64,000 nt of DNA from Panorpa germanica. Its lineage: Eukaryota; Arthropoda; Insecta; Mecoptera; Panorpidae. The notes beneath the pieces are model-generated. The model searched no databases. It was not told the origin of the DNA and saw only the letters and a list, made by a program, of their open reading frames with translations. Location: assembly GCA_963678705.1 (NCBI GenBank), contig OY783208.1, positions 19,618,207 to 19,682,206 on the forward strand, in the 5' to 3' direction. Below, piece after piece: positions 33,046 through 48,699 of this stretch; the first letter of the stretch is position 1, and every line of letters starts with the position of its first letter. A program made the translations under genes and the position numbers.

Positions 33046-33945
33046 GGTTATTTTTTTAAAAAGATTAGTTTTAAGTTAAATTATATTTAGTTTTAAGAAA
33101 TAGAAATAAGTTATCTGTAATATAGGTTAAGATCTTTGATAATATTAGTTATATTATAAAAGTACTCTCGACACCAGATGTGACTTGTGGACCCCGAACT
33201 CTCAAAGCAGACACTCGCTAAAGTATATGCTTACGAGTCATCAAGGCGTTGTCTCATGAATACACGTACAACGTGTCGTGTGCAAAAGTGTTCTATAGAA
33301 AATGGCGAAAGAATAATACTAGTTGTATTTGGTTGCTATTTTGTGAATATAAAATCATAGTTAAATTAATTACTAGGTGTAATATAATTGATATTGTGAT
33401 TAGCGTAAACAATAGAGTTAGACAGCAAATTTAATGTTTAGTACTAAGGTGTATTTTCATTAAGAATATTGTGTTGTTAACTATGGACAATTGTACTGCG
33501 TATTACGGGTGTAACGCACAAACATTGAAAGAACTATATTGTATTTAATCTAGTGTATTTTGTTGTGAATGTAATTAAGATTAATTAACTTTATGTAGAT
33601 GTAATATTGTGACTTTGATAAGTGATTAAACTATTAATATCCAAATTATGTGTTTACTCGTTTTAAAAGAAACTATATTGTTGTATTGTACATTAACTTT
33701 AGGCTGATGTTAATTGTAACTTAATAATTGTTGAAATTACCTACAAATAAGGATCTCAACAGATGGTTAGAGATATAACCTACAAATTGTGAGCTATCAA
33801 CAGTGATTGAATAGTTCTAGGCTGCATAATAGAATCTCAACGGGTGGTTGTAAATTCTAACCTGCAAAGCGGAGTCTGTACCGGGATGGTAATAGATTCA
33901 AAAACTACTAATGTAGATAATTAAAAAAGTCTACATATATATATA
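33043..33945. other. Gene-free left flank of the Polinton
   Basis: No gene recognised. Related phrases with CTCAACAGATGG, TCAACAGTG and TCAACGGGTGG occur near 33756, 33800 and 33838, each beside a T/C-AACCTRCAAA phrase, suggesting a short degenerate tandem repeat. The last bases are TA-rich and contain the Polinton target. Confidence 0.45.
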
Positions 33946-34304
33946 AGTAGTATATAATACCAGAGTCCTGACTCAAACTCAGTTTTGATAGATTTGACAT
34001 CTAAAAATTTATCAAATTAGTATATTATAGAGAGGTTTTGAATTCAAACTCAGTTTTGATAGATTTGACATCTGAAAATTTATCAAATTATTATGTGTAA
34101 CAAAATATCAAATATTTTTTAAAAAATTGCAATATTTCTAACACAAATCTAAATTTGATATAAATTGCAATAATTGATAATATATATCAAAATATTGATA
34201 CATATTTAGACCTCTAAGGATTTATTAATAAGGGGGGTCTTCAAGACACCTCAATATTTTTTGTGTTCATAAAATACTGACTAATTTTTTTTCTATTAAA
34301 TGGA
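33946..34304 (+). repeat. Polinton left terminal inverted repeat
   Basis: 359 bp, starting AGTAGTATATAATACC. It matches the complement of 48292-48650 with few mismatches and ends inside the start codon region (ATGGA) of the first gene. It contains a 71-bp tandem pair (33973 and 34044 onward), each unit able to form a TTTGATA/TATCAAA hairpin, and a conserved GGGGGGTCTTCAAGACACC block near 34232. Polinton ends serve as protein-primed replication origins and integrase substrates; here they probably also hold the promoters of the outer genes. Confidence 0.93.
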
Positions 34305-37300
34305 TTATCAAAGAAACCAATTTCAAACTCAAACTATGATCCAATTAAAACAATATTGTAGAGATAATAAAATTCGAGGAGTATCTCAGTTAAGAAAAGC
34401 ACAATTAATTAATACAATAATGAGATATATTAATAATACTAGAACAGAAGAGTATATACCACCATTCCAAAATGTTGATATCCCATTTACAATAGAAAAA
34501 CCATATTTATCCCCATTTAGAAGTATCAAAGATGATGATGAAGATATATTCCCCAAACCAATAGATTTTGAAAGAAATTTAGAAAGGAAGAGATTGATTA
34601 AAGAATTAGAATTAAAACCACATAAAGCATTTAAAGGATTAATAAGTGATAAATATTTTGTTTCGAAAAATAATGAAGATCAATACACATTTTGAAGAAA
34701 TTGGAAAACCATTAACAAATTATATAAAATTTCAAATTGAAAAATATAAATATATAAAGTTTAAACTTTCTACTTTTATTGAGTATGTAGAATTAAATCA
34801 AGATGGAGAAGAAGTAAATACACACACAAATAAATTTAGTACTGATAATATAGAAGTTTCTAGTTATGTAAAAGATATTCATAAATTGGTTAAAATTATT
34901 GAAGATATAATTGATAATAAATTTGATCAATGGACTGAAAAGAACTTTAAATATAGATTTAAACAAGTAAAATATTCTGTTTTATTTCGAGATAAATTTC
35001 AACCAATAAAAGGTGGATCATATATTGATTTACCAAAATGGATAATAAATAAAAAATGTTGTGTAAATGTGGAAAATATTAGAACTAGACAATTTAAGTG
35101 TGAGAAAGAAGAAGATGAAAGATGTTTTGAATATGCTTTAGAAAGTATACTAAATCCAGTAGGTAAGAATAATTGTAGACCATCAAAATATAATATAACA
35201 AGATATGAGGAATTAGAAATGGATTATCCGATTGCTATATCTCAAGACATTATTGAAAAATATGAACAGTTTTTAAATATTTCAATTAATTTATATGAAT
35301 CAATAAAAATAGAAAATGCAGAAAGGGAGGAACAAATAATATTAGGCTATAGAAGTAAAAATATTTCTAATGATAAAACACATGTTAACTTATTAGTCCT
35401 TAGTGGTATTGAACAATTAAATGAAGAAGAATGGATAAGAATTTACCATTTTGTTGGTATAAAAAATTTAAGTAGTTTATTAAAAGGTAAAATTCATCAT
35501 AACAATAATCATCTTTATATTTGTAATAAATGTAGTAAGAGCTTTGAAACTGTTATACAATATAATACCCATGCAAAAATTTGTGGAATCTCAACTAGAA
35601 ATATAACTATGCCAGCTGAAAAAACATACAAATTATTTTATAAATCTAATGGAGCAGAAATATATCACCCTTATTTTACAACATTAGATTTTGAATGTAC
35701 ATTATCTAAAGATTTTCCCTCAGATAAAATAAATAATAAAAAAATTATTTCTAAACACATTCCAAATAGTTATTGTTTTACTACAAATGAAAAAACAATT
35801 TTGAGAAGAGAAAAAGACTCTAATATATTAATGAAAACATTTAATAACGATTTAACAGATTTGGCAAAAAATTATTACAAAATAAAGAAAATAAATGAAC
35901 CTATGAAATGGAATGAAGAAGATATAAAATTATTTGAATCACAAACAAATTGTCATATTTGTGGTAAAGATTTTGAAGGTCTTCCTTCTAATAAAGTTTG
36001 GGATCATGATCACATAACTGGTAAATTTAGAGGTGCCGCACATAAATCTTGTAATTTAAATTTAAAATTACCCAATTTTGTACCCATTGGAATACATAAT
36101 ATAAAATATGATTCAAAAATATTTATTGAATGGATTTTAAAATTGAGCAAAGAAGCTGAAAATATTAAAATACTTGCTGATACAACTGAAAATTATAAAT
36201 ATTTATCAAAACGAGTTTTGGTAAATGAATATGAAACAAAACAAGATTCAATATATTGCTCAAATTGTAAAATATCAAGAAAAGGTAAAAACCTTTTTGA
36301 AAAATGTAATAAATGTGAAGGTATAACAAAACTTGAAGTGTGTGGAGAAAATAAAATCAAATGTTTAAAATGTCAAAATATCTATAAAACTGCTAATCAA
36401 CTCTGCGAATCAGAAACAGAATCTCTTATAGATCTCTCCGAAGGAGAATCTCTTATAAAACTCTTTGAAGGAAAATCTCTTACAGAGCTCTTTGAAGGAG
36501 AATCTTAGAATGTAAAAATGATAATTGCACATATAAATGGGAAAAACTTAGAATAACACCAAAAGGAACAATAATACAAAGTTTTATGGAAATAAGATTT
36601 ATTGATACATTAGCATTTATGGGTGTTTCATTAGATAAAGCAATTAAAAATTTATTAAACATTAACTCTGGATATTGTTATAAATGTAAGAAACAACGAG
36701 AATTAAAAAATCCTATACTGCTTTGCAAGACTCCAGAGGGTATAATAGCATATGATGATTGTGAATATTGTAATACTAAAATTGAAAAAATATGCGATTA
36801 TAGTTCTTTTAAATATTTTAATGAAAGATATAAAAATTATTCATTAGAAGGAAAAGCTTTCTTATTACAAAAAGGAGTTTATCCATATGAATGGGTTGAT
36901 GATTATAAAAAGTTCGATGCATTAAATTTACCAGATATTAAAGAATTTTATTCCAATTTAAATTGTAAAACAATAACTGAAAAACAATATAAATTTGCCA
37001 AAGACTTTTGGAAACATTTTAATATTGATACTTTTGGTGAATATCATGATAGATATTTAAGATTAGATATTATATTATTATATGATGTATTTAATAATTT
37101 GAGAGATATGTGTTATAAGGAATTTCAATTAGATCCAGTTTATTTTATGAGTGCTCTACATTTAGCTAATTCAGCTTTATTAAAATATACCAAACAAACA
37201 TTAGAATTATATCAAGATCAAGAAATGTATGAATTTACTGAAAAAGGTATTCGCGGTGGAATTAGTATGATATCAAATAATTATGCTTTATCAAATAATT

Positions 37301-38694
37301 GTTATTTCTATGATGAAAAGCATGAGAAAGTTATAAAATTATCAAAAGAAAAAGCTGAAGAAAAGGGTATATATAATTCAAAAAAACATTTGAGTTATAT
37401 AATGTATTTAGATGCTAATAATTTATATGGTTGGGCAATGTCTCAAAAACTACCAATATCTAATCATGAATGGCTGTCAAAGGAAGCTATTCAAGATTTA
37501 AAAAAAAATATAATGAGTATCGATGATGAGGGGGACATAGGATATATATTAGATGTTAATTTAGGAATTCCAAAAGAATTACATGATAAATTTAATGATT
37601 ATGCATTAGCTCCCGAACACTATTCACCAAAATATGATGAATTATCAAAATATCAAAAACATATGATTGATATTGGATTAGGATCAAAACCATCAAAAGA
37701 GAATAAAAAATTAATGTGTACGTTATACAATAAAAAAAATTATATTATAGATTATAGAATATTAAAAGAATATATAAGACAAGGTGCTAAATTATTTAAT
37801 ATTAATAAAGGTATTAAAAATATACAAAAAGCATGGTTAAAATCATATATTGATAAAAATACTAAATTACGACAAAATGCTAAAAATGATTTTGAAAAAG
37901 ATTTCTTTAAATTAATGAATAATAGTGTATATGGAAAACAAATGGAAAACGTTAGAAATAGAATAAATGTAAAATTAATTAAATCTGAAGAAGCAATGCA
38001 AAAAATGATAAATTCAAGTCATTATCAAAATAGAAGTATATTAAATGAAGATACCGTCCTCATATATGGAAAAAAAGCTAGAGTTAAATTAAATAAGCCT
38101 ATATTTGGTGGATTTTCTATACTCGAATTATCAAAATTATTAATGTATAAATTTTATTATAACTATTTAAAACCTAAATATGGTGATAAAGTTAAACTAT
38201 TAAGCACTGATACAGATTCCTTTATTATACATGTTGAAACAGATGATTTTTATGAAGATATAAAAAATAATATCGAATATTTTGATACAAGTGATTATCC
38301 AGATGATCATCCTAATAATATACCTCAAAAAAATAAAAAAATTCCTGGATTATTTAAAGATGAATATAACGGTATTCCAATTAGAGAATATTGTGAATTA
38401 CGATCAAAAATGTATGCGTTTAGAACTGATAATCATGAGAAGAAAATATGTAAAGGAATTAAAAAAGTTAATATTATGAAAATGACATTTGATAAATATA
38501 AAGATTGTTTATTTAAACAAGAAAGAACAATTGAAACTAGTTATAGTATAAGATCATTTAAGCTACAATTATATACTATTCAAGAAGAAAAAATTGGATT
38601 AAGTCCTTATGATGATAAAAAATATTTAATTGATAATTTTAATAGACTATCATATGGTCATAAAAATATTGATGAATTTTTCTATAATAAATAA
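34300..38694 (+). pseudogene. pPolB: Protein-primed DNA polymerase B, two frameshifts
   Basis: The replicative polymerase of the Polinton. It starts at the TIR edge (ATG 34300) with a SAP-like helix pair (LKQYCRDNKIRGVSQLRKAQL). A frameshift near 34680-34695 leads to the second frame. That holds a C2H2-like finger (CNKCSKSFETVIQYNTH), exonuclease motif I (TLDFECTL), a Cys-His cluster (CHICGKDF, WDHDHITGKFRGAAH, CN) and exonuclease motif II (HNIKYDS). Three 27-bp repeats at 36419-36499 end this frame. The third frame has exonuclease motif III (FIDTLAFMGVSLDK) and the polymerase: motif A (YLDANNLYGWAM), motif B (KLMNNSVYG) and motif C (STDTDSF). All catalytic residues are visible. Total length is about 1,450 codons. 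No terminal protein was recognised as a separate gene. Confidence 0.94.
36419..36507 (+). repeat. 27-bp repeat array inside polB
   Basis: Three 27-bp units (36419-36445, 36446-36472, 36473-36499) and the start of a fourth. In frame they read ESLIDLSEG, ESLIKLFEG and KSLTELFEG. The array sits between the exonuclease zinc region and exonuclease motif III and ends at a TAG, after which polB coding continues one frame over. It is the same repeat family as elsewhere in the element. Confidence 0.88.
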
Positions 38695-38696
38695 AC

Positions 38697-38831
38697 GTCT
38701 CTCTTTCAAAGCTCTCTAATACAGATACTGCTTTGGAACGCTGCAGTGCAGATACTCTTTCAGAGCTTTGTAAAACAGAATCCCTTTCAAAGCTCTCCAA
38801 AATAGAATCTCTTTCAAAGCTCTCCAGAGAA
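38697..38831 (+). repeat. 27-bp repeat array after polB
   Basis: Five tandem 27-bp units starting at 38697, 38724, 38751, 38778 and 38805, beginning two bases after the polB stop. The last four read DTALERCSA, DTLSELCKT, ESLSKLSKI and ESLSKLSRE, running in frame into the following small ORF. Confidence 0.9.
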
Positions 38832-39101
38832 GAATTAATAAACAAATTGAATAACATTAATAATCTTTATAATAATTTCATAAATTTATTAGAGTTAGAA
38901 TTAAATATACCCTATCTCATTATGAATGCAAAAATGATAACATCAAAATATGGAGATAGAATAATTTTAACTCTTGAAAATAAGAAGAAATTGAGTTTAC
39001 CAGAAAAATATAATAAAATAATTGATAATCCAGATGATTTGAAATTATTGAAATTAATATACAAAGGTAAAACTGCTTTGCAGCGCTCCGAAGGAGAATA
39101 A
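38724..39101 (+). CDS. Small ORF of unknown function with repeat-derived ends
   Basis: The frame is open from the repeat array to the TAA at 39099-39101. The N-terminal part (about 36 residues) is encoded by 27-bp repeats and the last residues (TALQRSEGE) by another copy at 39071-39097. There is no ATG in frame before 38922, so the true start is uncertain. The non-repeat middle (IPYLIMNAKMITSKYGDRI, then KLSLPEKY and LKLIYKG) looks like a compact beta-rich domain. Similar small proteins occur beside polB in other Polintons, and a single-strand DNA-binding OB-like role is a guess only. Confidence 0.5.
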   Translation, partial: DTALERCSADTLSELCKTESLSKLSKIESLSKLSREELINKLNNINNLYNNFINLLELELNIPYLIMNAKMITSKYGDRIILTLENKKKLSLPEKYNKIIDNPDDLKLLKLIYKGKTALQRSEGE

Positions 39102-39169
39102 TATAAATGATAAATACGAAAAACATAACATTACTTTTAGTCAATAAAAAAAAATATTTTTTATAATAA

Positions 39170-39661
39170 ATGAATCTCTTTCAGAGCTCTCCAAAGGAGA
39201 TTATCTCCTCCAAAACATATATTGAAAAACGAATGTATGTATATAGAAAAAGTTATAATTATTATCAAAAAATTGATATTGGTTTAACAATAAGTAAAGT
39301 ATTATTTAGTGCATCAGGATTCTCCTTCGGAGCGCTGCCAAGTGGATTACCAGATTTAATTTTAATACCATTAGGAGCATTAAGTTTAGGTGGGGTAATA
39401 ATTGAAATTTTAGATAAAAAAATTCAAATAAAAGAAAAAATGTCTGAGTATAAAGTGGCCTATAAATTTTATAATCAAATGTTGCCACAAATAAAAGCAG
39501 ACATAATAAATGAAAATGATGTTTATATTAAAGAAGCAGAATTTATTGAAAACCTTAAATTTTTTCCATTGGATAAATATTTAAAGAAAGCAAATATAAA
39601 TGGAATACATGGATATCTCAGAACGAGTATATTGTGTAAAATGCAAAAAGAAAACAGATAA
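39170..39661 (+). CDS. Two-helix membrane protein of Polinton type
   Basis: 163 residues. Two hydrophobic segments at about residues 38-56 (GLTISKVLFSASGFSFGAL) and 60-82 (LPDLILIPLGALSLGGVIIEI) form a hairpin, followed by a charged, probably coiled-coil region (KIQIKEKMSEYKVAYKFYNQ). Comparable small membrane proteins are common in Polintons, role unknown. A 27-bp-type repeat supplies the first codons (39172-39200, MNLFQSSPKE), and a reverse copy (39320-39342) lies between the two hydrophobic segments. It starts at TAATAAATG and overlaps the next gene by 53 bases. Confidence 0.65.
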   Translation: MNLFQSSPKEIISSKTYIEKRMYVYRKSYNYYQKIDIGLTISKVLFSASGFSFGALPSGLPDLILIPLGALSLGGVIIEILDKKIQIKEKMSEYKVAYKFYNQMLPQIKADIINENDVYIKEAEFIENLKFFPLDKYLKKANINGIHGYLRTSILCKMQKENR

Positions 39662-39746
39662 TATTGATATTAAAACAATGAGAACAGAAAATACTAAATA
39701 CAGATTATCAGCAAAATGTAAAATTTGTAATAGTAATAAAAGTTAA
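39609..39746 (+). CDS. 45-residue zinc-ribbon protein
   Basis: ATG at 39609, TAA at 39744-39746. Two CxxC pairs (YCVKCKKKTD near the start, CKICN near the end) about 30 residues apart form a zinc ribbon. It resembles the very short zinc-ribbon proteins (DUF5679-like) common in large DNA viruses and Polinton relatives; function unknown. It overlaps the membrane protein gene in another frame, typical of compact viral genomes. Confidence 0.7.
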   Translation: MDISERVYCVKCKKKTDNIDIKTMRTENTKYRLSAKCKICNSNKS

Positions 39747-39756
39747 TTTATTAAGC

Positions 39757-40609
39757 ATCTCTTTCAGAGCCCTACAAAAAAAAAACTCTGAAGTTCTTTT
39801 AAAAGAAGCAATTGAATTACATAAACCAGTTATTAAAAAATTTAGACGAAGAAAAGTTATAGCACTTATAATAGATGATTTATGGGCTGCAGATTTAGTT
39901 ATAATGAGAAAATATGCTGATGATAATAATGGTTATAAATATATATTAAATGTTATTGATACTTTTTCAAAATTTGTTTGGTCTAAACCATTAAAATATA
40001 AAACAGGAAAATCAGTTGCTAAAGCTTTTGAATCATTATTACATAATAGAAAACAAAAATTATTACATGTTGATAAAGGTTTAGAATTTGTTAATTTGTT
40101 AAGATTTTATAAAAATTTTAGATAAATATAATATAAAAATGTATCACACTGAAAATGAAGAAAAATCTACAATTATTGAAAGATTTAATGGTACTTTGAA
40201 TCGTAAGATGAAACCCTATTTTACAGCAAATAATAATTTTAAATGGATAAATATATTAGATACTTTAATAAAAGAGTATAATTATAAAGATTATCATCGA
40301 ACTATCAAAATGAAACCCTTTGAAGTTAATAAAGATAACGAAAAATATATTTTGAATACTATATACTCTCCCAATAGGGATAGATTTAATGAAAATATCT
40401 CAAAATTCAAAATTGGTGATAAAGTTAGAATAACAAAATTCAAATCAACATTTTCAAATAAATATGAAACTAATTGGACAAATAAAATATTTAAAATTCA
40501 TAAAATTTTATATACCAATCCAATAACATATAAAATAAAAGATTTAAATGGTGAAGAAGTCATTGGTGGATTTTATAATAAAGAACTTCAAAAATGTAAG
40601 ATTTGCTAA
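39757..40609 (+). pseudogene. INT: Polinton integrase (RVE family), N-terminus lost, one frameshift
   Basis: Retroviral-type integrase that inserts the element. The core has the first catalytic D in IDDLWAADL (about 39875-39895), the second in LLHVDKGLEF (about 40072) and the catalytic E in IIERFNGTL (about 40180). A frameshift near 40095-40125, in an A/T-rich stretch, separates the second D from the E. The C-terminal part (FKIGDKVRI, GFYNKELQK) is the SH3/chromo-like domain usual in Polinton integrases. The HHCC zinc domain is missing: the readable part starts just before IELHKP, and a repeat-family fragment (39758-39780) lies exactly there with no in-frame ATG. The lesion may therefore have been caused by the repeat. 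Confidence 0.92.
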
Positions 40610-40644
40610 AGACTGCGAAGGCTTTCTTTTTTTATAAATAAATA

Positions 40645-41595
40645 ATGGGGAAATTTATTAAAATTATTGGAAACAAATTGAGATTTGAAAATCCAATTAA
40701 TCTTGATCCCCATAAAAAATATAAAATTGGAGTATCTGGTTTTAAATATGATTTAATTGATATAAATAATTTTACAAAGTTCAAATTTCCAAAATTTAGT
40801 ATAGATATTATTTGGGAAACTATATATGGATATTATTCATTAACATGTAATATAAATGCAAATATATATTCTATTAATGATTTAGAAACAAAAATTATAC
40901 AATATTTAACTCGTATGAGTTTTATAATAAAAACTAAAGAATTTAAAATTAATAATAATCAACATGTATTTGATTTTTCTAATAAAAATGCTGATGATTT
41001 TTTAAATTATATAACTTTTATACCAGAAGGAGAAATACCAAAAGGAAAAAGTTTTCATAGTACTCAAACATTTTTTGATCATGGTTCATTTGTAATGGAT
41101 GTTATTAATCAAAATAAAGTGAAAATTAATAGTCTAGTTAAATTAATATTTTCAAAGGAAATTAATAATATAATAGGATTTGGAAATAATAATATAATTG
41201 GAGTTGGAATTATTCCACAAAATAAAATTATAGAAGGTCCTCTTATATTACCTAAAGAAAGAAGAATTATTAATAATAAATTATATGAAATACATTGTAA
41301 TATTGTAGAATCAAGTCATTCAAATCATGATAATCATCCACATTCACATAAAGATGATAATTTACTTTATGTATTTAAATTGGATATTGCTAAAAGCAAC
41401 GCTCCGAATGGAGATACCTCTTCAACATTTATAAATCCTAATGAAATTATTTATATTGATATATCAGATCGAATTGATAAATTTCAAGAAATTATTTTAA
41501 ACATTTATGACTTAGAAGGAAATGAGTGTCAAATATTTAGTAGAATTATAACATACTTACATTTATGTTGTTTAATAAATGACTCTACAACGTAG
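40645..41595 (+). CDS. mCP: Minor capsid (penton-like) protein
   Basis: 316 residues, open throughout. The N-terminal pattern (NLDPHKKYKIGVSGFKYDL, then a beta-rich segment and NIYSINDLETKIIQYL) and the C-terminal end (IIYIDISDRIDKFQEI, NIYDLEGNE, ITYLHLCCL) match the predicted single jelly-roll minor capsid protein of Polintons, which would form the vertices. A repeat remnant at 41396-41418 adds an SNAPNGDTSS loop, the kind of surface loop that tolerates insertion. The gene overlaps the ATPase by 17 bases. Confidence 0.75.
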   Translation: MGKFIKIIGNKLRFENPINLDPHKKYKIGVSGFKYDLIDINNFTKFKFPKFSIDIIWETIYGYYSLTCNINANIYSINDLETKIIQYLTRMSFIIKTKEFKINNNQHVFDFSNKNADDFLNYITFIPEGEIPKGKSFHSTQTFFDHGSFVMDVINQNKVKINSLVKLIFSKEINNIIGFGNNNIIGVGIIPQNKIIEGPLILPKERRIINNKLYEIHCNIVESSHSNHDNHPHSHKDDNLLYVFKLDIAKSNAPNGDTSSTFINPNEIIYIDISDRIDKFQEIILNIYDLEGNECQIFSRIITYLHLCCLINDSTT

Positions 41596-42253
41596 ACCCG
41601 AAATAAAAAATTATATATTAGAAGAACATAAAAACTCAGAAAGAATATTTCCAAAACCATTAAGATGTTTATTATGTGGTCCATCAAATTGTGGTAAAAC
41701 ATGGTTATTATTTAATTTTCTTACACAACCTTTTATAGAATTTAAAGGTCTATATATTTATACAACAACATTAAATCAAAAAATATATAAAGCATTAGAA
41801 AGAATTTTTAGTGAGATAGATACAGTGGATTCGCATTTTAATAATTGTGAAAATATTATTCCTGTTGAAGATTGTATAACTGATAGTGTTGTTGTGTTTG
41901 ATGATTGTTTAGTAGAAGATCAAGATATGTTTAAAAAATATTTTTATAGTGGAAGACATAAAAAATTATCTTGTTTTTATCTTAGTCAAAGTTTTCTTGA
42001 AACAAATAAAAATTTGATTAGAAATAATTGTAATTTAATTATATTGTTTAAACAAGATTTATATAGTATTCAAGAGATTCATAAAACAATTGTCGGTGCT
42101 GATATGAATTTAAATAAATTTAAAGAGTTATGCAATAAATGTTGGAAAATAAAATATGGTTTCTTATGTATCAATCGTGAAAAAGATAACATTAATGAAC
42201 GTTATATGTTTAAAGACGTTGATGGATATATTAAAAGTGTCGATGCTCTTTGA
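41579..42253 (+). CDS. ATP: Genome-packaging ATPase (FtsK-HerA type)
   Basis: 224 residues, intact. Walker A GPSNCGKT at residues 34-41 and Walker B VVVFDD at 104-109, followed by the sensor-like FYLSQS. This is the A32-like packaging ATPase shared by Polintons, adintoviruses and many nucleocytoplasmic large DNA viruses; it pumps DNA into capsids. The start ATG at 41579 lies in a TTTAATAAATG context and overlaps the minor capsid gene. No lesions, and one of the best-preserved genes here. Confidence 0.94.
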   Translation: MTLQRRPEIKNYILEEHKNSERIFPKPLRCLLCGPSNCGKTWLLFNFLTQPFIEFKGLYIYTTTLNQKIYKALERIFSEIDTVDSHFNNCENIIPVEDCITDSVVVFDDCLVEDQDMFKKYFYSGRHKKLSCFYLSQSFLETNKNLIRNNCNLIILFKQDLYSIQEIHKTIVGADMNLNKFKELCNKCWKIKYGFLCINREKDNINERYMFKDVDGYIKSVDAL

Positions 42254-42282
42254 AAAGGAACGATGCATTATTTTATTAATAA

Positions 42283-43798
42283 ATGGAAGGAGACATCTTA
42301 ACCGTTTCCGAAGCTAAAAAAATAGATAAAATGCGAGATAAATTAATTAAAACATATAAAAAAGGATCTATACAAATCTCTGAGAAAAAAAAGAAAACGC
42401 TGGAGAATTTTAAATATCCTTCGGAGCTCAGATCAGGAAAATCAGATAAATTATTAGAAGCTGAAAAAGCAGATGAGATTAGAAATAAATTATATGAGAA
42501 ATATAAAAAAATTGAATTACAAAATTTAAAATATAAGACCACTAAAGAAAAAGAATATGCTCCATTATTATCAGCGTTAGGAAAAATAGATGAAGATATT
42601 ATTAAAAGTTCTGAAGGAGAAACTAAACAATTACAACCATATTTTACTATATCAGAACCTGTTACACCGAGTAAAAAAGAATTAACAGAACCTGTTACTC
42701 CAAGAAAGTTTGATTTTTCAAAAATAAAAATATATGGAACAAACGCATCAACATATTTGCAACTTAGTATGGATAAAGATTACAAGTTTTATAAAATATA
42801 TGGACCAAAATAAGTTAATAACGAATTAAAAATAGGTAATAGTAAAATGGAACTTGATAAAGATGATGGAATTACTATTGATGGTTAAAAAAACCTATAA
42901 TGGAACTGTTGGATTATGGTATTTATTAACTTATGGTGGTAAACCTGATCCACAATTATTTACAAAAGATGACTATATAGACTACAGAGATATTATAATA
43001 AATTCTAAGGCTTTAAACAACAAAATTAATAAACCTCTTTCATCACCAACAATTAAATGGACTACAATGATAAAATATATACATGATTATATTAAAACAG
43101 GTATGAAACAAGATTTAAATTATGATACTCTTTCAGAGCGCTCCGAAGGAGATAGTAATTTTAAAGAAGAGAAAGAAGGCTCAGGGTTAGTGGGACCTTG
43201 GAGAGAATCTCCTTCGGAGCGCTTTCAATGGAAAGAATACAATGATAATAAAATAGAAGTTCAATATATTTCAAATTTGAATCAATTAATAAAACGTTTA
43301 CAATTTATTAACGCAGAAGAAAACGCAGGTAATAATAATTTTCATAATGAAAAATTAGGAGTGTTAAAATTTTTTAATAATGAAATTGAAAAAATATTAG
43401 ATACTCCAAAAGGATGTGAATATTTAATAAAAATTGCAACATCATTACCAAAGAAAATTATAAGAGGATCAGGTATACTAAATACAATTATAAATACCCT
43501 ACCATTAAAAATGCATCTTCCTGGTTATAATTATTGTGGTCCCGGTACTAAATTACACGATAGATTAGCAAGAGGTGATAAAGGAATTAATGGTTTAGAC
43601 GAAGCTTGTAAAGAACATGATATTGCTTATAGTGAAAACAAAGAATTAGAAAAGAGACATGAAGCTGATAAAGTTTTAGAACAGAAAGCTTGGAATAGGT
43701 TTAAGAGTTCTGATAGTAACGTTGGTGAGAAATCAAACGCGTGGCTTGTTACAACAGGAATGAAATTAAAACATAAAATCGGTTTTGGATTAGCATAA
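42283..43798 (+). pseudogene. PLA2-domain virion protein, broken in the middle
   Basis: The N-terminal half (42283-42813) is Lys/Glu-rich, probably coiled-coil, with two PVTP motifs; it ends in TAA after YKIYGPK. A frameshift near 42885, at an A run, leads to the second half (GTVGLWYLLT; then NAEENAGNNNFHNEKLGV). Its C-terminus carries a parvovirus VP1-type phospholipase A2 domain: the calcium loop YNYCGPGT and the catalytic His-Asp in ACKEHDIAY. In parvoviruses that activity helps leave the endosome; a similar entry role is inferred. A perfect 27-bp repeat (43124-43150) adds DTLSERSEG in frame and an inverted copy (43204-43229) adds ESPSERFQ. Fragments also lie at about 42417 and 42609. Confidence 0.88.
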
Positions 43799-43828
43799 AA
43801 AGGAGAGATACTTTATTTTAGTAATAAA

Positions 43829-44653
43829 TGGAAACATTCCAAACAAATTTAACAAAACATCAAACTAGTAATATTTAAAGCTTATAAGGATAAAAAAGAT
43901 ATTTTAATTCACTTAAAATATAATCAATTAATTAATGGTGGTGAAAATAAAATATTATTAACAAAAAGATTATCAAATAGAATTAAGAAGGCAATAAAAG
44001 AGAAAACAGGTTGTAGAATAAAAATCTCCTTTGGAGCTCTGAAAAAAAATCATAAGGGTGGATTTCTTCCATTATTATTTGCTGGATTAGCAGCTTTAGG
44101 ATCATTAATTGGTGGAGCATCTGCAATTACTAATTCAGTTATAAATAAATCAGCTAAAGATAAAGAACTTGAAGAACAAAAAAGACATGATTTAGCAATG
44201 GAGAAGACAGGACGAAGCCTTTCCATGGATAAAAAAGGAAGTGGTTTAAAAAAAAAAAGATACAGCCATTGTCAAACATAGATATTGAAAATTTAGTTAA
44301 AAAATTAAAAATTAAAAATTTTAGAGGTGTGTTTATGAAAGATGAATTACCAGATAAACCAAATAATATTGAATGTGATTGGAAGTCATTGGACTGCTTA
44401 TTATAAAAATAATAATAAAATATATTATTTTGATTCTTATGGAAATACTAAACCACCTAAAGAATTAATAAAATATTTCTCACAACCTTCGGAGATATTT
44501 TATAATGATACACGAATTCAACAATATAATGATCCACCAATTTGTGGACATCTCTGTTTATTTTACTTAAAGAACCTTCGGAGCTCTCCAAAGCATGATC
44601 TTTTTTATTCTAATAAATGGTCGAAGTTTTTGATAAATATAACAAATATTTAA
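43829..44653 (+). pseudogene. PRO: Adenain-like maturation protease with membrane-active N-terminal region, frameshifted
   Basis: The ATG at 43829 (TAATAAATG) opens 16 codons, then the frame shifts near 43875. The N-terminal region has a hydrophobic Gly/Ala segment (GGFLPLLFAGLAALGS), reminiscent of adenovirus protein VI, and a basic SGLKKKR end. A second shift occurs in an A run (44249-44259), and a third near 44380. The protease core has FRGVFMKDELP, catalytic His in GSHWTAYY, Asp in YYFDSYG and Cys in CGHLCLFYL, the His-Asp-Cys set of adenovirus protease (family C5). Repeat fragments lie at 44024-44042 and 44574-44593. Whether this was one gene or two is unclear; it cannot make active protease as it stands. 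Confidence 0.88.
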
Positions 44654-45830
44654 TTCGTAATGAATACAAGAAATTTTATCCAAAATTTGATAGACGAGAT
44701 ATAAATAAAGAAAATGCAGCAATATCTTTTAAACTTGATTATAATAATAACTGCATTCTAAATTTAAAAAATATTCATATTTATATTGAGGGAGAATATA
44801 AACAAACAGATGAAAAAAATTATGGTAATGAAACTGTAGTTAAATTAATAAATAATTTTGTAGCACATAAATTTAAAACCATTGAATATAAAAAACATAA
44901 TTACAAAATTGATCTAATTGAAAACGTTGGAGTTGCAAGTACAATGAAGGGAGTAATTACAAAAACAAAAACTGATACAAATAATTTAAATACTGGATTT
45001 ATTTCAAATTTTTTGAACATGGTGATATTTTTACAGCATTAGTACCTTTATCTGATTTAGGATTAGGAATATGTGATACTGATAATATAATTTGGGGTAG
45101 TGCTGATGAATTTATATTTACAATGAATCATGATAATGATGCAATTTATAGAGCGAATGATATTGCTGAGGGTAAAATTATAATTACTGATATTTATTTA
45201 TATACTCCATTGCTTGAATATGATACTATTGGTTGTGCAATGTTACTTGATGAATTAAAAACTCTAAGTGAAGAAGGAAATTATACTTTGAATTATTATA
45301 GATGGCAATGTATTAAAATATTGAATGAGAGTATGTCTGGAAAATCATTGAAACTTGATATTACTACAGATTATAGAAGCCACAAACAACCATTATTTGG
45401 AATATTCGCTTTCCAAGTAAATAAATCTAATAATCAATTAAAAGATATGAGTGAGTTTAATCATAAATATGTTAAAAATTATTATTTCACTATTAATGGA
45501 AATAGATATCCAGAAGAAAGTCAAAATTTAGATTTTGATAAAGATAAATATAATATTGCATATATGACATATCAGTCTTATAGAAAAATATTTTCTATAA
45601 CAGATAAAAATATGTTCTATGATATAAAAAGTTATAAAGAACTTGGACCTGTTTATTTAGTTGATTTAACTTGTCAACCAACAGATACAGAAATTTCAAA
45701 TAAAACAATATTTTTACATGTTGATCTTGATAAGAAAGTTGAAAATGATACATGTTGTTATATTATGTTGTTATCTCATATTAAAAATAAATTTGATATG
45801 GTTTTAAATAAATTTGAGGAGACTATTTAA
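44617..45830 (+). pseudogene. MCP: Major capsid protein (double jelly-roll), one frameshift
   Basis: About 400 codons. The first part (44617-45042) has a beta-rich start (NAAISFKLDYNNNCILNL, HIYIEGEYKQ); the second frame continues with PLSDLGLGICD and ends FEETI at 45830. Position, size and pattern match the predicted double jelly-roll major capsid protein of Polintons. The only lesion seen is one missing base at a six-T run (45009-45014); the flanking frames fit each other directly. The start overlaps the protease end by 37 bases and sits in TTCTAATAAATGG. Either the gene is newly broken or the T run is miscalled. Confidence 0.85.
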
Positions 45831-45890
45831 CAACAGCGCTCCTTAAAAAGGAGAAACTATTTAACAACAGCGCTCCTTATAAAGGAGAAA
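45823..45890 (+). repeat. Tandem 34-bp hairpin repeat between MCP and MMP
   Basis: Two 34-bp units differing by one base, each with AGCGCTCCTT and AAGGAG flanking a short A/T loop, so each can fold into a CTCCTT/AAGGAG hairpin. The AGCGCTCC core links them to the 27-bp family. They lie between the major capsid stop and the metalloproteinase start and could act in 3' end formation or as a spacer. Confidence 0.75.
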
Positions 45891-45905
45891 CTATTAAATA
45901 TATAA

Positions 45906-47441
45906 ATGATATATATTTTTTACTTTTTATTTCTTTTACCAATATTTTCAACAAACGAGGACTCTGATAAGAACATTGAAAAATATTTAAATCATTTTGG
46001 TTTCTCAACTACTAATAGTAGCGCTCCGGAGAGTACTAAAGACTCTGAAGGCTCTTTAATACTTTTTCAAGAATATTATAATTTACCTATTGATAAAGCA
46101 TTAAAGTTAATTAAAACACCAAGATGTGGAAATGAAGATAATCCTTTACAATATAGAATTCATACAACGAAATGGGATAGAAAAACTTTGTATTGGCATT
46201 TTGCTTTAGCTCAATCAATACACAAAGAAATTACTCAAAAAGCTTTTAATGTTTGGTCGATAGTAAGTGGTCTTACTTTTTATAATAATATTTATAAACC
46301 TGATATATTAATTTCGTCTGCAAGCGATATACATAAACATAAAAATAATGCTCGATGTACAAAAGGTCTTTGTAATTGGGATTTTGATGGCGAAGGAACA
46401 GTATTAGCACATGCAACGTATCCTAATACAAATAATAGTTGTTTAGAAATTCATTTAGATAGGTCTGAAGATTGGGATTTGTATCATAATGATACTCTTT
46501 CAGAACGCTCCGAAGGAGATACTGAGAAAACTAGTTTGTATTCTGTATTAATACATGAAATTGGACATACGTTAGGTATTGAACATTCTGCACATGAAGA
46601 AGCAATAATGTTTCCTTATTATAGAAGAAAGAATAATCTCAGTCAAGATGATATTTATGCAGTTCAGAGGTTATATGGTCCTCCAACAACTCCAATAATT
46701 CCAACTACTATTCCAACTAGTATTCCAACAACCATTCCAAATGTTCCGAAGGAGAATAATCCAATTAATAAACCTATTCTTTGTAATGTATTTAAAAATA
46801 TAGATACGTTTTTAATTGTGAATCATAATCTCTATATTTTCTATAACAAGTATGTGTGGAGAATAAAAATTGGTGATAAGATATATCAGGAACCGGAACT
46901 GATAACAGATTATTTAACATTTTTACCTAAAGATATAGAAAAAATTTCTTATATTTATCAGAGACCTTCAGGTGAAATATTATTAATAGTTAATGAATTA
47001 TTATACATAATGAGTTATCCTAGATTTGTAGTAAATAATAATTACAATGGAGTTCCTTTACAAAGGCTAGGTATTCCACAAAATAAAATGATTACAAGTA
47101 TTTTTAACTCATATACTGGTCAAACATATGTTTTTTATGATAACCTTTATATAGAACTAAATGAGTGTTCGTTATCTCCAAAACGTCATGGTCTCTTATC
47201 AGACTTATTTCCGGGGATACCATTGAACGTTTCTAATGTATTTAGATATATAAACGGACTATTATATTTTTTTCATAATAATAATTTTTATGAGTATAGT
47301 GAGTTTTCAAATTCATTAATTAGATCAGGTAAAAAAGACTTATCAATGTTTGATATACCCTGTCCAAATATGACAATTTTAGAACAGCTAAAAATTTTAT
47401 TAAAGAAACTCGTACTACAAAATAGTTTTGAACTTAATTAA
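45906..47441 (+). CDS. MMP: Secreted matrix metalloproteinase with hemopexin-like domain
   Basis: 511 residues, intact. A signal peptide (IYIFYFLFLLPIF) at residues 2-15; a short prodomain with cysteine switch PRCGNED at 72-78; the catalytic domain (about 85-258) with calcium and structural zinc residues (WDFDGEGTVLAHAT, EIHLD), zinc site HEIGHTLGIEH at 217-227 and Met-turn AIMFP around 235; a Pro/Thr hinge (259-285); and a four-bladed hemopexin-like domain (about 290-500) closed by the LCN and IPC cysteines. It would cut extracellular matrix. MMPs are known in some baculoviruses; I know of none described as a Polinton gene. It has no introns, shares the element's AT-rich codon use, and lies inside the TIRs between capsid and zinc genes. 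Repeat copies are in frame in the prodomain (46019-46058) and catalytic domain (46491-46517, DTLSERSEG at 196-204). Confidence 0.95.
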   Translation: MIYIFYFLFLLPIFSTNEDSDKNIEKYLNHFGFSTTNSSAPESTKDSEGSLILFQEYYNLPIDKALKLIKTPRCGNEDNPLQYRIHTTKWDRKTLYWHFALAQSIHKEITQKAFNVWSIVSGLTFYNNIYKPDILISSASDIHKHKNNARCTKGLCNWDFDGEGTVLAHATYPNTNNSCLEIHLDRSEDWDLYHNDTLSERSEGDTEKTSLYSVLIHEIGHTLGIEHSAHEEAIMFPYYRRKNNLSQDDIYAVQRLYGPPTTPIIPTTIPTSIPTTIPNVPKENNPINKPILCNVFKNIDTFLIVNHNLYIFYNKYVWRIKIGDKIYQEPELITDYLTFLPKDIEKISYIYQRPSGEILLIVNELLYIMSYPRFVVNNNYNGVPLQRLGIPQNKMITSIFNSYTGQTYVFYDNLYIELNECSLSPKRHGLLSDLFPGIPLNVSNVFRYINGLLYFFHNNNFYEYSEFSNSLIRSGKKDLSMFDIPCPNMTILEQLKILLKKLVLQNSFELN

Positions 47442-47945
47442 TATGTTGAGCATGCGTTCGAATCCCACATGTGACAAATCTTTTTTTTTATTTTTTTTTC
47501 AGAGTTCTACATATAATAATTAATAATAGATGGTGACACTAATTAACGAAATCTCATTTGTATGGGATGATTCACGTCTTAGCTCTCAATAATGTTGTAC
47601 ATTGTAATTATGGACTATATATACAAGTTTTAATTTTTCATATGTTGGGATAACTATGATATTATGGTTTTGAGTATGCGTTTTATAAGAGGTGCACATC
47701 TTATATTAGTGCAGATCAAAGTCAGTATCATAGGTAAAGACTGGTCGTATTAAATCTCAAAAGTATCTTGTTGTATTAAATTCAAAAAAATTCTATTCAA
47801 AATTAAAAACCGAATTAAAGACTCGACGTCTGTAAAAAGATGTAAATGTCGTGCTGGCTTAAACTCAATAAACAAATTCTAATAAATATGTGTGTTTGTA
47901 AGTTGTAATACTTGAAAATAATTGATAAAGCAACAAGTTAGTAAA
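47442..47945. other. Non-coding gap with RNA polymerase signals
   Basis: No protein gene. GTTCGAATCC (47456-47465) matches the polymerase III B box (the T-psi-C arm of tRNA), with a nine-T run 15 bases on (47481-47489), but no 5' tRNA half is seen. TATAAGA at 47684 and TCAGT at 47722 resemble a TATA/initiator pair at rather long spacing (40). AATAAA near 47868 and 47881 may serve the genes on either side. Confidence 0.4.
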
Positions 47946-48296
47946 TTAGAAACTTTTGCTCTTTTTTAATAAATTTTTAACACATTCATTACAGGTATAA
48001 GAATATCCCAATGCATCACTTTGATTTTTATGAAATTCTTCATATGGTTTTTTAATTTGACAAGAAGAACATTTTCTAGCTTTATTAAGTGTTAATCGAT
48101 GATAATTCGTTTTTAAATGTTTTTTATAAAAAAATTTTGAAATTATTTTGCCACATTCACAAGTAATAGTTTGTTTTTTATAATTTAAATCACAATTTTT
48201 ACAAATATTACTTAAATTATCTTTTTTACATTTATTTGAATAAAAATTATCCAAAGATAAGGTTTGTTTACATGTTGAGCATTTTTTATTTTCCAT
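47946..48296 (-). CDS. Cys-rich zinc-cluster protein transcribed from the right TIR
   Basis: 116 residues on the minus strand, starting MENKKCSTCKQTLSLDNFY at the inner edge of the right TIR. Three metal-binding modules: CSTCK...CKNC, CECGK...HLKTNYH (C2H2-like) and CSSCQIKK...CNEC. The repeated 'CxxCk...F...CxxC' pattern is like zinc modules of phage and viral endonuclease VII-type or HNH proteins, but catalytic residues are not clear. It is the only minus-strand gene and converges on the MMP gene. Function unknown. Confidence 0.75.
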   Translation of the reverse strand: MENKKCSTCKQTLSLDNFYSNKCKKDNLSNICKNCDLNYKKQTITCECGKIISKFFYKKHLKTNYHRLTLNKARKCSSCQIKKPYEEFHKNQSDALGYSYTCNECVKNLLKKSKSF

Positions 48297-48648
48297 TTAA
48301 TAGAAAAAAAATTAGTCAGTATTTTATGAACATAAAAAATGTTGAGGTGTCTTGAAGACCCCCCTTATTAATAAATCCTTAGAGGTCTAAATATGTATCA
48401 ATATTTTGATATATATTATCAATTATTGCAATTTATATCAAATTTGGATTTGTGTTAGAAATAGTGCAATTTTTTAAAAAATATTTGATATTTTGTTACA
48501 AATAATAATTTGATAAATTTTCAGATGTCAAATCTATCAAAACTGAGTTTGAGTTCAAAACCTCTCTATGATATACTAATTTGATAAATTTTCAGATGTC
48601 AAATCTATCAAAACTGAGTTTGAGTCAGGACTCTGGTATTATATACTA

Positions 48649-48650
<2 letters not shown>
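48292..48650 (-). repeat. Polinton right terminal inverted repeat
   Basis: Complement of the left TIR, the same 359-bp length, ending ATATACTACT at 48650. Its inner edge is the start codon of the minus-strand zinc protein, mirroring the polB start on the left. Confidence 0.93.

Positions 48651-48699
<49 letters not shown>
48651..48699. repeat. TA microsatellite at the Polinton right flank
   Basis: About 24 TA units directly after the right TIR. It includes the TATATA target copy and may have expanded after insertion. Confidence 0.9.

Follow-up and report, generated by a model that had tools for sequence, protein, structure and literature searches.

The analysis of a 64,000-nucleotide stretch of the Panorpa germanica genome (contig OY783208.1, positions 19,618,207 to 19,682,206; hereafter the window) disclosed a Polinton, spanning window positions 33911-48685, that harbors many copies of a short repeated unit. 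These units are read here, with a probability of about 0.6, as ultra-short non-autonomous double-hairpin insertion elements spreading within one Polinton family (family A). Exact filled and empty alleles exist in the polymerase, PLA2, metalloproteinase, protease and other genes; the feature conserved among the units is a double hairpin with compensated stems, neither a palindrome nor a peptide; and the sister copies hold far fewer units than family A does. The window belongs to a 24.8-Mb contig of a 464-Mb genome assembled in 249 contigs, and is thus not organellar DNA.

Filled and empty sites, target motif and hairpin structure

Eight clean insertions were identified, six of which have a unit-free empty allele, while the remaining two (sites S3 and S9) lie beside an existing unit; S3 shares its GATA with the eighth clean insertion. 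The sister copy C7 (loci L042 and L046; a second one, C41, comprises L043 and L047) aligns at 82-91% to parts of the 38.9-47.4 kb stretch, the remaining alignment being too diverged for reading. Relative to C7, the window carries clean insertions at 41382 (30 bp), 43204 (30 bp), 44207 (27 bp) and 46491 (27 bp), as well as one of 25 bp at 39072. C7 itself carries a unit at 44262, a position at which most family-A copies have a related one. In the polymerase gene (site S1), a 27-bp in-frame insertion is present in 4/9 covering copies and absent from 5/9; these nine copies share about 91-98% identity with the window there, which points to a recent event, and the same site appears empty by eye in a 64% identical protein. 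In the metalloproteinase gene (M10; site S11), 21 filled and 6 empty alleles were counted among 27 distinct copies (30 loci, three repeating a copy), some of the loci having been chosen for carrying the unit; three of the six empty alleles belong to close family-A copies (L019, L020 and L023). The PLA2 site S5 is cleanly empty in L045, and C7 also lacks the unit there, with a junction that is not clean. At the ORF176 site, the insertion is 27 bp long and AATCA is repeated. The capsid gene shows no gap block of at least six columns across 30 family-A loci, and the stretches flanking it are rich in such blocks.

All eight clean insertions repeat GATA, GATT or GAAT on one strand, and each consists of an element of 23 or 26 nt plus the repeated GAWW, for a total of 27 or 30 bp; since both totals are multiples of three, the genes stay open. 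GAWW occurs at 5.6% of element positions, giving a joint chance of 1.7e-9 for seven insertions, a figure that is post hoc because the motif was defined from these same sites. A held-out set of units was found by structure alone, dropping all cores within two mismatches of five clean cores; in this set, which includes some overlapping or chance hairpins, identical flanking triplets occur in 17/42 units (8/23 among those without array neighbours) vs. a background of 5.0%. With shifted versions of the same event counted separately, pairwise alignments of three stretches yielded 159 different inserted segments, 15-110 bp long. A GC hairpin is present in 130 of them, vs. 24.3 in mononucleotide shuffles, and the length is a multiple of three in 105/159, the commonest being 27 bp.

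The original prediction, made from the letters of the window, had described a near-palindromic 27-bp unit adding the same nine-residue peptide to unrelated proteins. The palindrome gives way to two adjacent mini-hairpins (CTCT-TTC-AGAG, CG, CTCC-GAA-GGAG), typically with TTY as the loop of the first, RAA as that of the second and CG or CT as the spacer between them. Among 83 distinct units with at least 16/24 core matches, taken from the window element and 45 loci, the fraction of paired cells in the two 4-bp stems is 0.708, vs. 0.594 +/- 0.012 when the 3' letters are shuffled (highest value in 500 shuffles, 0.6235); as related units count separately, the shuffle is not a strict probability, and the palindrome count over the same rows serves as the control. 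Pairing across the palindrome (0.556 vs. 0.558 shuffled) reveals no covariation, and the whole-palindrome model was rejected. Observed stems include CTCC/GGAG, CTGC/GCAG, CTCG/CGAG, CTGT/ACAG, ATGC/GCAT, TTGC/GCAA and CACC/GGTG, and the sole difference between the cores at S1, S9 and 39.08 kb is one outer pair swapped on both sides (T-A, A-T, C-G). No match to the units was found in Rfam.

As to the peptide, a single base does distinguish the units at 43124-43150 and 46491-46517, which both encode DTLSERSEG in frame; the shared peptide, however, is restricted to units in one phase. All three phases are represented among the window units, and the same-peptide model was rejected. In other copies, the S1 insertion gives the polymerase the residues SFGALQSNI and leaves the frame open through the site. 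The peptide is thus a by-product, tolerated where the protein permits. The predicted preservation of the frame was borne out, the insertions being exact and mostly frame-preserving. In-frame window units are free of stops except at an ORF end, and most inserts at coding sites have a length divisible by three. Aligned with the metalloproteinase, MMP-12 has a nine-residue gap where the M10 unit lies; one matched residue and a three-residue gap come next, just ahead of the zinc-binding HExxH motif. None of 240 homologs (the best 120 of 666 for PLA2, many of which span the PLA2 domain alone and not the unit region, and the best 120 of 7728 for the polymerase) matches any of five unit-peptide patterns.

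Spread within family A, proposed mechanism and rival explanations

A scan with a 30-bp consensus (threshold of at least 19/30 matches; 30 dinucleotide shuffles) found 19 sites inside the Polinton, about 0.5 per shuffle and one in the remaining 49 kb, in agreement with the roughly 20 Polinton-confined units predicted; one scan match, at 46950, is probably due to chance. The tandem arrays announced at 36.4 and 38.7 kb do show a 27-bp period. The individual units listed fared unevenly as insertions: those at 41396, 46019 and 46741 do not reach the scan threshold, the first being nevertheless a real, though divergent, 26-nt insertion, and the 44024 candidate was rejected, sister copies without the unit having about the same length there.

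Genome-wide, a 21-mer with up to three mismatches gave 228 matches (one for the reversed control) and an exact half-unit gave 146 (none for the control); 100 of each were listed, in overlapping lists. Of the 21-mer matches listed, 97/100 are at most 20 kb away from a family-A capsid gene and three fall in family-A pieces; of the half-unit matches listed, 94/100 are at most 12 kb from such a gene, four more are in family-A pieces (L039 twice, L071 and L073), and the last two (L070 and L072) sit between stretches matching Polinton loci, one of which is the sister copy L046. Hence the search for units outside Polintons returned none among the matches listed; taken with the result on the 240 homologs, neither of the two outcomes named beforehand as refuting the prediction was observed within the scope of these searches. 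C7 and C41 contain 0-1 units per 6-kb piece, with a hairpin density near that of shuffled sequence, and no unit was found in 6 kb of each of two pieces of other Polintons (family B, with about 68 matches). A further recurrent double hairpin, CTCCTTTGGAG-CA-CTGCTAAGCAG, flanked by ATA and located in the right arm downstream of the M10 gene (e.g., in L035, L036 and L038), was observed in 10 loci.

The suggestion that the units are mini-mobile, or spread by conversion, stands as regards exact insertions spreading in one family; the 27 bp thought to form the element are instead made up of 23 nt of element and a 4-bp target that is repeated. According to the proposed mechanism, an element of 23 (sometimes 26) nt would enter directly after 5'-GAWW-3', the four target bases reappearing behind it, with the first G of the right-hand GAWW closing the second hairpin. 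Protein-primed PolB elements replicate by strand displacement, and the single-stranded Polinton DNA so exposed would be the probable moment of insertion, its folded form being the one that is moved or recognised. A trans-acting nuclease might make a staggered cut at GAWW, leaving the 4-bp duplication, and the Polinton's own endonuclease VII-PolB (EndoVII-PolB) protein is a candidate for this role, since enzymes named endonuclease VII cut branched DNA. A thin association between this module and the units comes from L046 and L053, two left pieces of sister type that, as read, have neither. The full scheme, in which a 23-nt double hairpin with a 4-bp GAWW target lives as a Polinton parasite, is moved by a Polinton protein (EndoVII-PolB being the candidate) that, at replication, acts on hairpins of single-stranded DNA, and spreads through coding DNA by virtue of its multiple-of-three length, is put forward tentatively and is, in all its parts together, rather unlikely; such elements would be among the smallest transposing DNA units known.

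Several observations weigh against an insertion element. The empty S1 alleles read TATC, CATC or TATT; the empty M10 target is GATA in only 3/6 copies and otherwise GACA or GCTA; and several right flanks at M10 are found both filled and empty, which implies recombination, loss, repeated gain or later mutation. The 39.07-kb unit corresponds to a 25-bp length difference, present in the window copy only and not a multiple of three; the 34-bp insert at 45.83 kb lies outside the 27/30-bp pattern, the 36-bp insert type at 44.2 kb repeats GGAGAA, and L019 carries, at the equivalent of 43828, an AT-rich 27-bp insertion without a GC hairpin (by eye). An intermediate state is seen in the diverged copies L044 and L045, each of which has three unit matches in 5-6 kb. 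No transposase-like gene is linked to the units, and a single active master was not found, the cores varying among sites. Lastly, a 64% identical EndoVII-PolB relative lacks the unit peptide and C7-type copies carry a few units or half-units, so that the module is not strictly required.

The main rival is template switching at microhomology, which accounts for the junctions nearly as well as an insertion element does. During strand-displacement replication, the polymerase would jump into an existing unit where 4-6 nt are shared (GATA, GAAT or AATC), copy one unit and return; snap-back copying would keep the stems matched, and neither a dedicated enzyme nor a mobile element would be required. 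The seven repeats tested are indeed all at least 4 nt long (a joint chance of 1.2e-4 for true repeats of 3 nt with random neighbours), GATA and GAAT words also occur at array junctions, and the hairpins at 44.26 kb are mixed and matched, CTCTTTCAGAG or CTCGTTCCGAG being combined with CTCCGAAGGAG or CTGTGAAGCAG. This explanation is weakened by the scarcity of close donors in the loci compared, which represent part of the genome: for S3 and S4, no donor at another site comes within three mismatches, and S1 and S9 lack one that differs by at most one mismatch. Moreover, unit-free sites gain exactly one unit rather than partial or multiple pieces. On balance, template switching is possible, if doubtful, as the source of the units.

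Ordinary coding tandem repeats, expanding and contracting and moved by gene conversion among Polinton copies, would fit the arrays of 27-bp period with variable copy number and the existence of chimeric copies, and yet single units stand at six unit-free sites in unrelated genes and occupy every phase, and conversion requires a homology that these genes do not have; the unit-free empty sites already disfavour this explanation, which is very improbable. An equally low standing is given to hairpins kept by selection as functional signals (for replication or packaging, or as RNA elements): the compensated stems and a TTC/GAA loop order symmetric on both strands would be expected of them, but the units are scattered in position, polymorphic in presence among closely similar copies and, as said, unmatched in Rfam. 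Translational bypassing elements such as the mitochondrial byps, which take a hairpin form of 27-55 nt, are skipped by the ribosome and are unconstrained in length and stops, recall the 27-nt hairpin inserts within genes. Some inserts in genes or close to them do depart from multiples of three, namely 25 bp at 39.07 kb, 97 bp at 44.26 kb in L035 and about 46 bp at 36.73 kb; the open frames and the prevalence of multiples of three described above, as if the units were translated, leave this idea with hardly any probability. Insertion elements remain the preferred explanation.

The host Polinton and its units

The element displays the hallmarks of Polintons/Mavericks, i.e., long terminal inverted repeats (TIRs), a double jelly-roll capsid gene, PolB, an A32-like ATPase (a weak match, E 0.0044, under the Pfam cut-off), and an integrase and a protease assigned by eye; its flanks are TA-rich. 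The position of its features is reported in Table 1. Several genes of the window copy are broken, and copies with open frames are present elsewhere in the genome. The EndoVII-like ORF probably belongs to an EndoVII-PolB gene, PF02945 being found in the same chain as PolB in several related PolB proteins. Among the best 120 of 7728 homologs of the polymerase part (36586..38694), the whitefly Bemisia tabaci provides the nearest named relatives. Pfam gave no PolB match for this part and none for the cysteine-protease-like ORF (44342..44653). The metalloproteinase gene, which resembles matrix metalloproteinases with hemopexin repeats, was possibly captured from a host.

Table 1. Features of the Polinton and of its units (window positions).
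Feature	Position	Strand	Remarks
Left TIR	33911..34312	+	402 nt, 95% complementary to 48284-48685
Endonuclease VII-like part	34646..36508	+	broken in window copy; PF02945 E 3.9e-7
Three-unit array	36419..36499	+	ESLIDLSEG ESLIKLFEG KSLTELFEG; GAAT/AAAT junctions
PolB-like DNA polymerase part	36586..38694	+	homologs up to 64% identity; LYGWAM, NSVYGK, DTDS motifs by eye
Site S1 (polymerase)	37518..37521	+	TATC, empty target in window copy
Array of about five units	38697..38831	+	copy number varies among copies
Unit at ORF end	39073..39096	+	CTGC-TTT-GCAG CG CTCC-GAA-GGAG
Unit opening ORF163	39172..39198	+	MNLFQSSPKE
Unit between GATT/GATT	39318..39348	+	GFSFGALPSG
Half-degenerate unit	39756..39785	+	at integrase N-terminus; SISFRALQ
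30-bp insertion	41382..41411	+	TTGCT-AAA-AGCAA CG CTCC-GAAT-GGAG; GATA repeated; absent in C7
Half-unit, site S4	42413..42442	+	other copies empty or with a different 27-bp unit
PLA2-domain protein	42854..43798	+	two inserts; PF08398 E 5.2e-13
S5, 27-bp insertion (PLA2 protein)	43124..43150	+	DTLSERSEG; GATA repeated
S6, 30-bp insertion	43204..43233	+	CTCC-TTC-GGAG CG CTTTC-AATG-GAAAG; GAAT repeated; absent in C7
27-bp insertion	44207..44233	+	different sequence type; 0, 27, 36 or 63 bp elsewhere
Cysteine-protease-like ORF	44342..44653	+	GSHWTAYY...CGHLCLFYL by eye
Hypervariable unit region	44570..44599	+	protease C-terminus, just upstream of major capsid protein start; S9 in other copies
Double jelly-roll major capsid gene	44617..45830	+	split in window copy
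Intergenic 34-bp inserts	45819..45895	+	CTCCTT-AAA-AAGGAG type
Matrixin-type metalloproteinase (M10 gene)	45906..47441	+	hemopexin repeats
S11, 27-bp insertion (M10 gene)	46491..46517	+	DTLSERSEG; just before HEIGHTLGIEH
Right TIR	48284..48685	-	pairs with 33911-34312

Two regions show additional types of insert. The 36-bp type (44207; near 44204 in L009-L038) carries the hairpins AGGC-CGAA-GCCT and CTCCTT-TCT-AAGGAG and occurs alone or together with a 27-bp piece. Between 45819 and 45895, insert lengths of 0/18/34/60/61/68 bp are found among the copies, and the 34-bp inserts are flanked by a 9-bp repeat, ACTATTTAA.

The capsid query, with 150 of 398 candidates scored, assigned at least 63 nearly full-length copies to family A (at least 94% identity), and the further matches listed for family B are other Polintons with 23-28% identity. 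In one copy, C237, the left piece (L053) is of the sister type, with PolB_2 and without units, and the right piece (L012) is of family A, with units; this is probably a chimeric Polinton, and suggests an exchange of replication modules. In L071 (1267-2429), frames resembling, by eye, a copia-type retrotransposon polyprotein adjoin a truncated family-A Polinton. No relatives were found in viral contigs by the capsid query or by a 24-mer pattern.

Comparison with known hairpin mini-elements

As predicted, the titles and abstract openings surveyed show no such family in Polintons, most subscription papers being outside this scope. Judging from the accessible portions of the papers cited below, the functionally closest systems are the mitochondrial double-hairpin and repetitive hairpin-forming elements, the GC clusters and the Rickettsia palindromic elements, the likeness being one of description; the units are not assigned to any known kind, because either the setting (organelle or bacterium) or the size does not agree. 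They also illustrate how segments of nine or ten new residues can be added to conserved enzymes without disrupting these.

In the mitochondria of fungi and sponges, the double-hairpin and repetitive hairpin-forming elements consist of two adjacent hairpins with complementary substitutions, form tandem runs and are patchily distributed among relatives (PMC2800124, PMC10085805). The Polinton units share with the mitochondrial double-hairpin elements the two adjacent hairpins with compensated stems; those elements are, however, organellar and mostly located in intergenic regions or rRNA genes, whereas the Polinton units are nuclear, inserted in frame and repeat GAWW. The GC clusters of yeast mitochondria (GC42) are palindromic and GC-rich, polymorphic in presence and absence, bordered by short repeats resembling target duplications, and subject to merging and shuffling (PMC4478555). 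The polymorphism with a short flanking repeat is common to the Polinton units, which differ in that GC42 clusters are 42 bp long, flanked by AG or ACT, mostly intergenic and mitochondrial. The Rickettsia palindromic elements (105-146 bp) lie in frame within protein genes of bacterial chromosomes, their target duplication being marked with a question mark (PMC2229807). The predicted likeness to them is upheld by the in-frame insertion of the Polinton units into protein genes; the latter are much shorter (inserts of 23-26 nt plus a 4-bp repeat, 27-30 bp in all) and lie in a 464-Mb genome. For byps, short gene inserts as well, an origin from mobile elements has been proposed (PMC4592705), and the difference is that byps are skipped in translation, whereas the Polinton units, judging from their length and open frame, look translated.

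The hairpin mini-repeats of mitochondria and Rickettsia are called mobile without an established mechanism (PMC2800124, PMC10085805, PMC4478555, PMC2229807). Here, many closely similar Polinton copies in one genome resolve filled and empty alleles to the base and reveal a target motif together with stem compensation, and the question of what moves hairpin mini-elements becomes directly testable in nuclear DNA.

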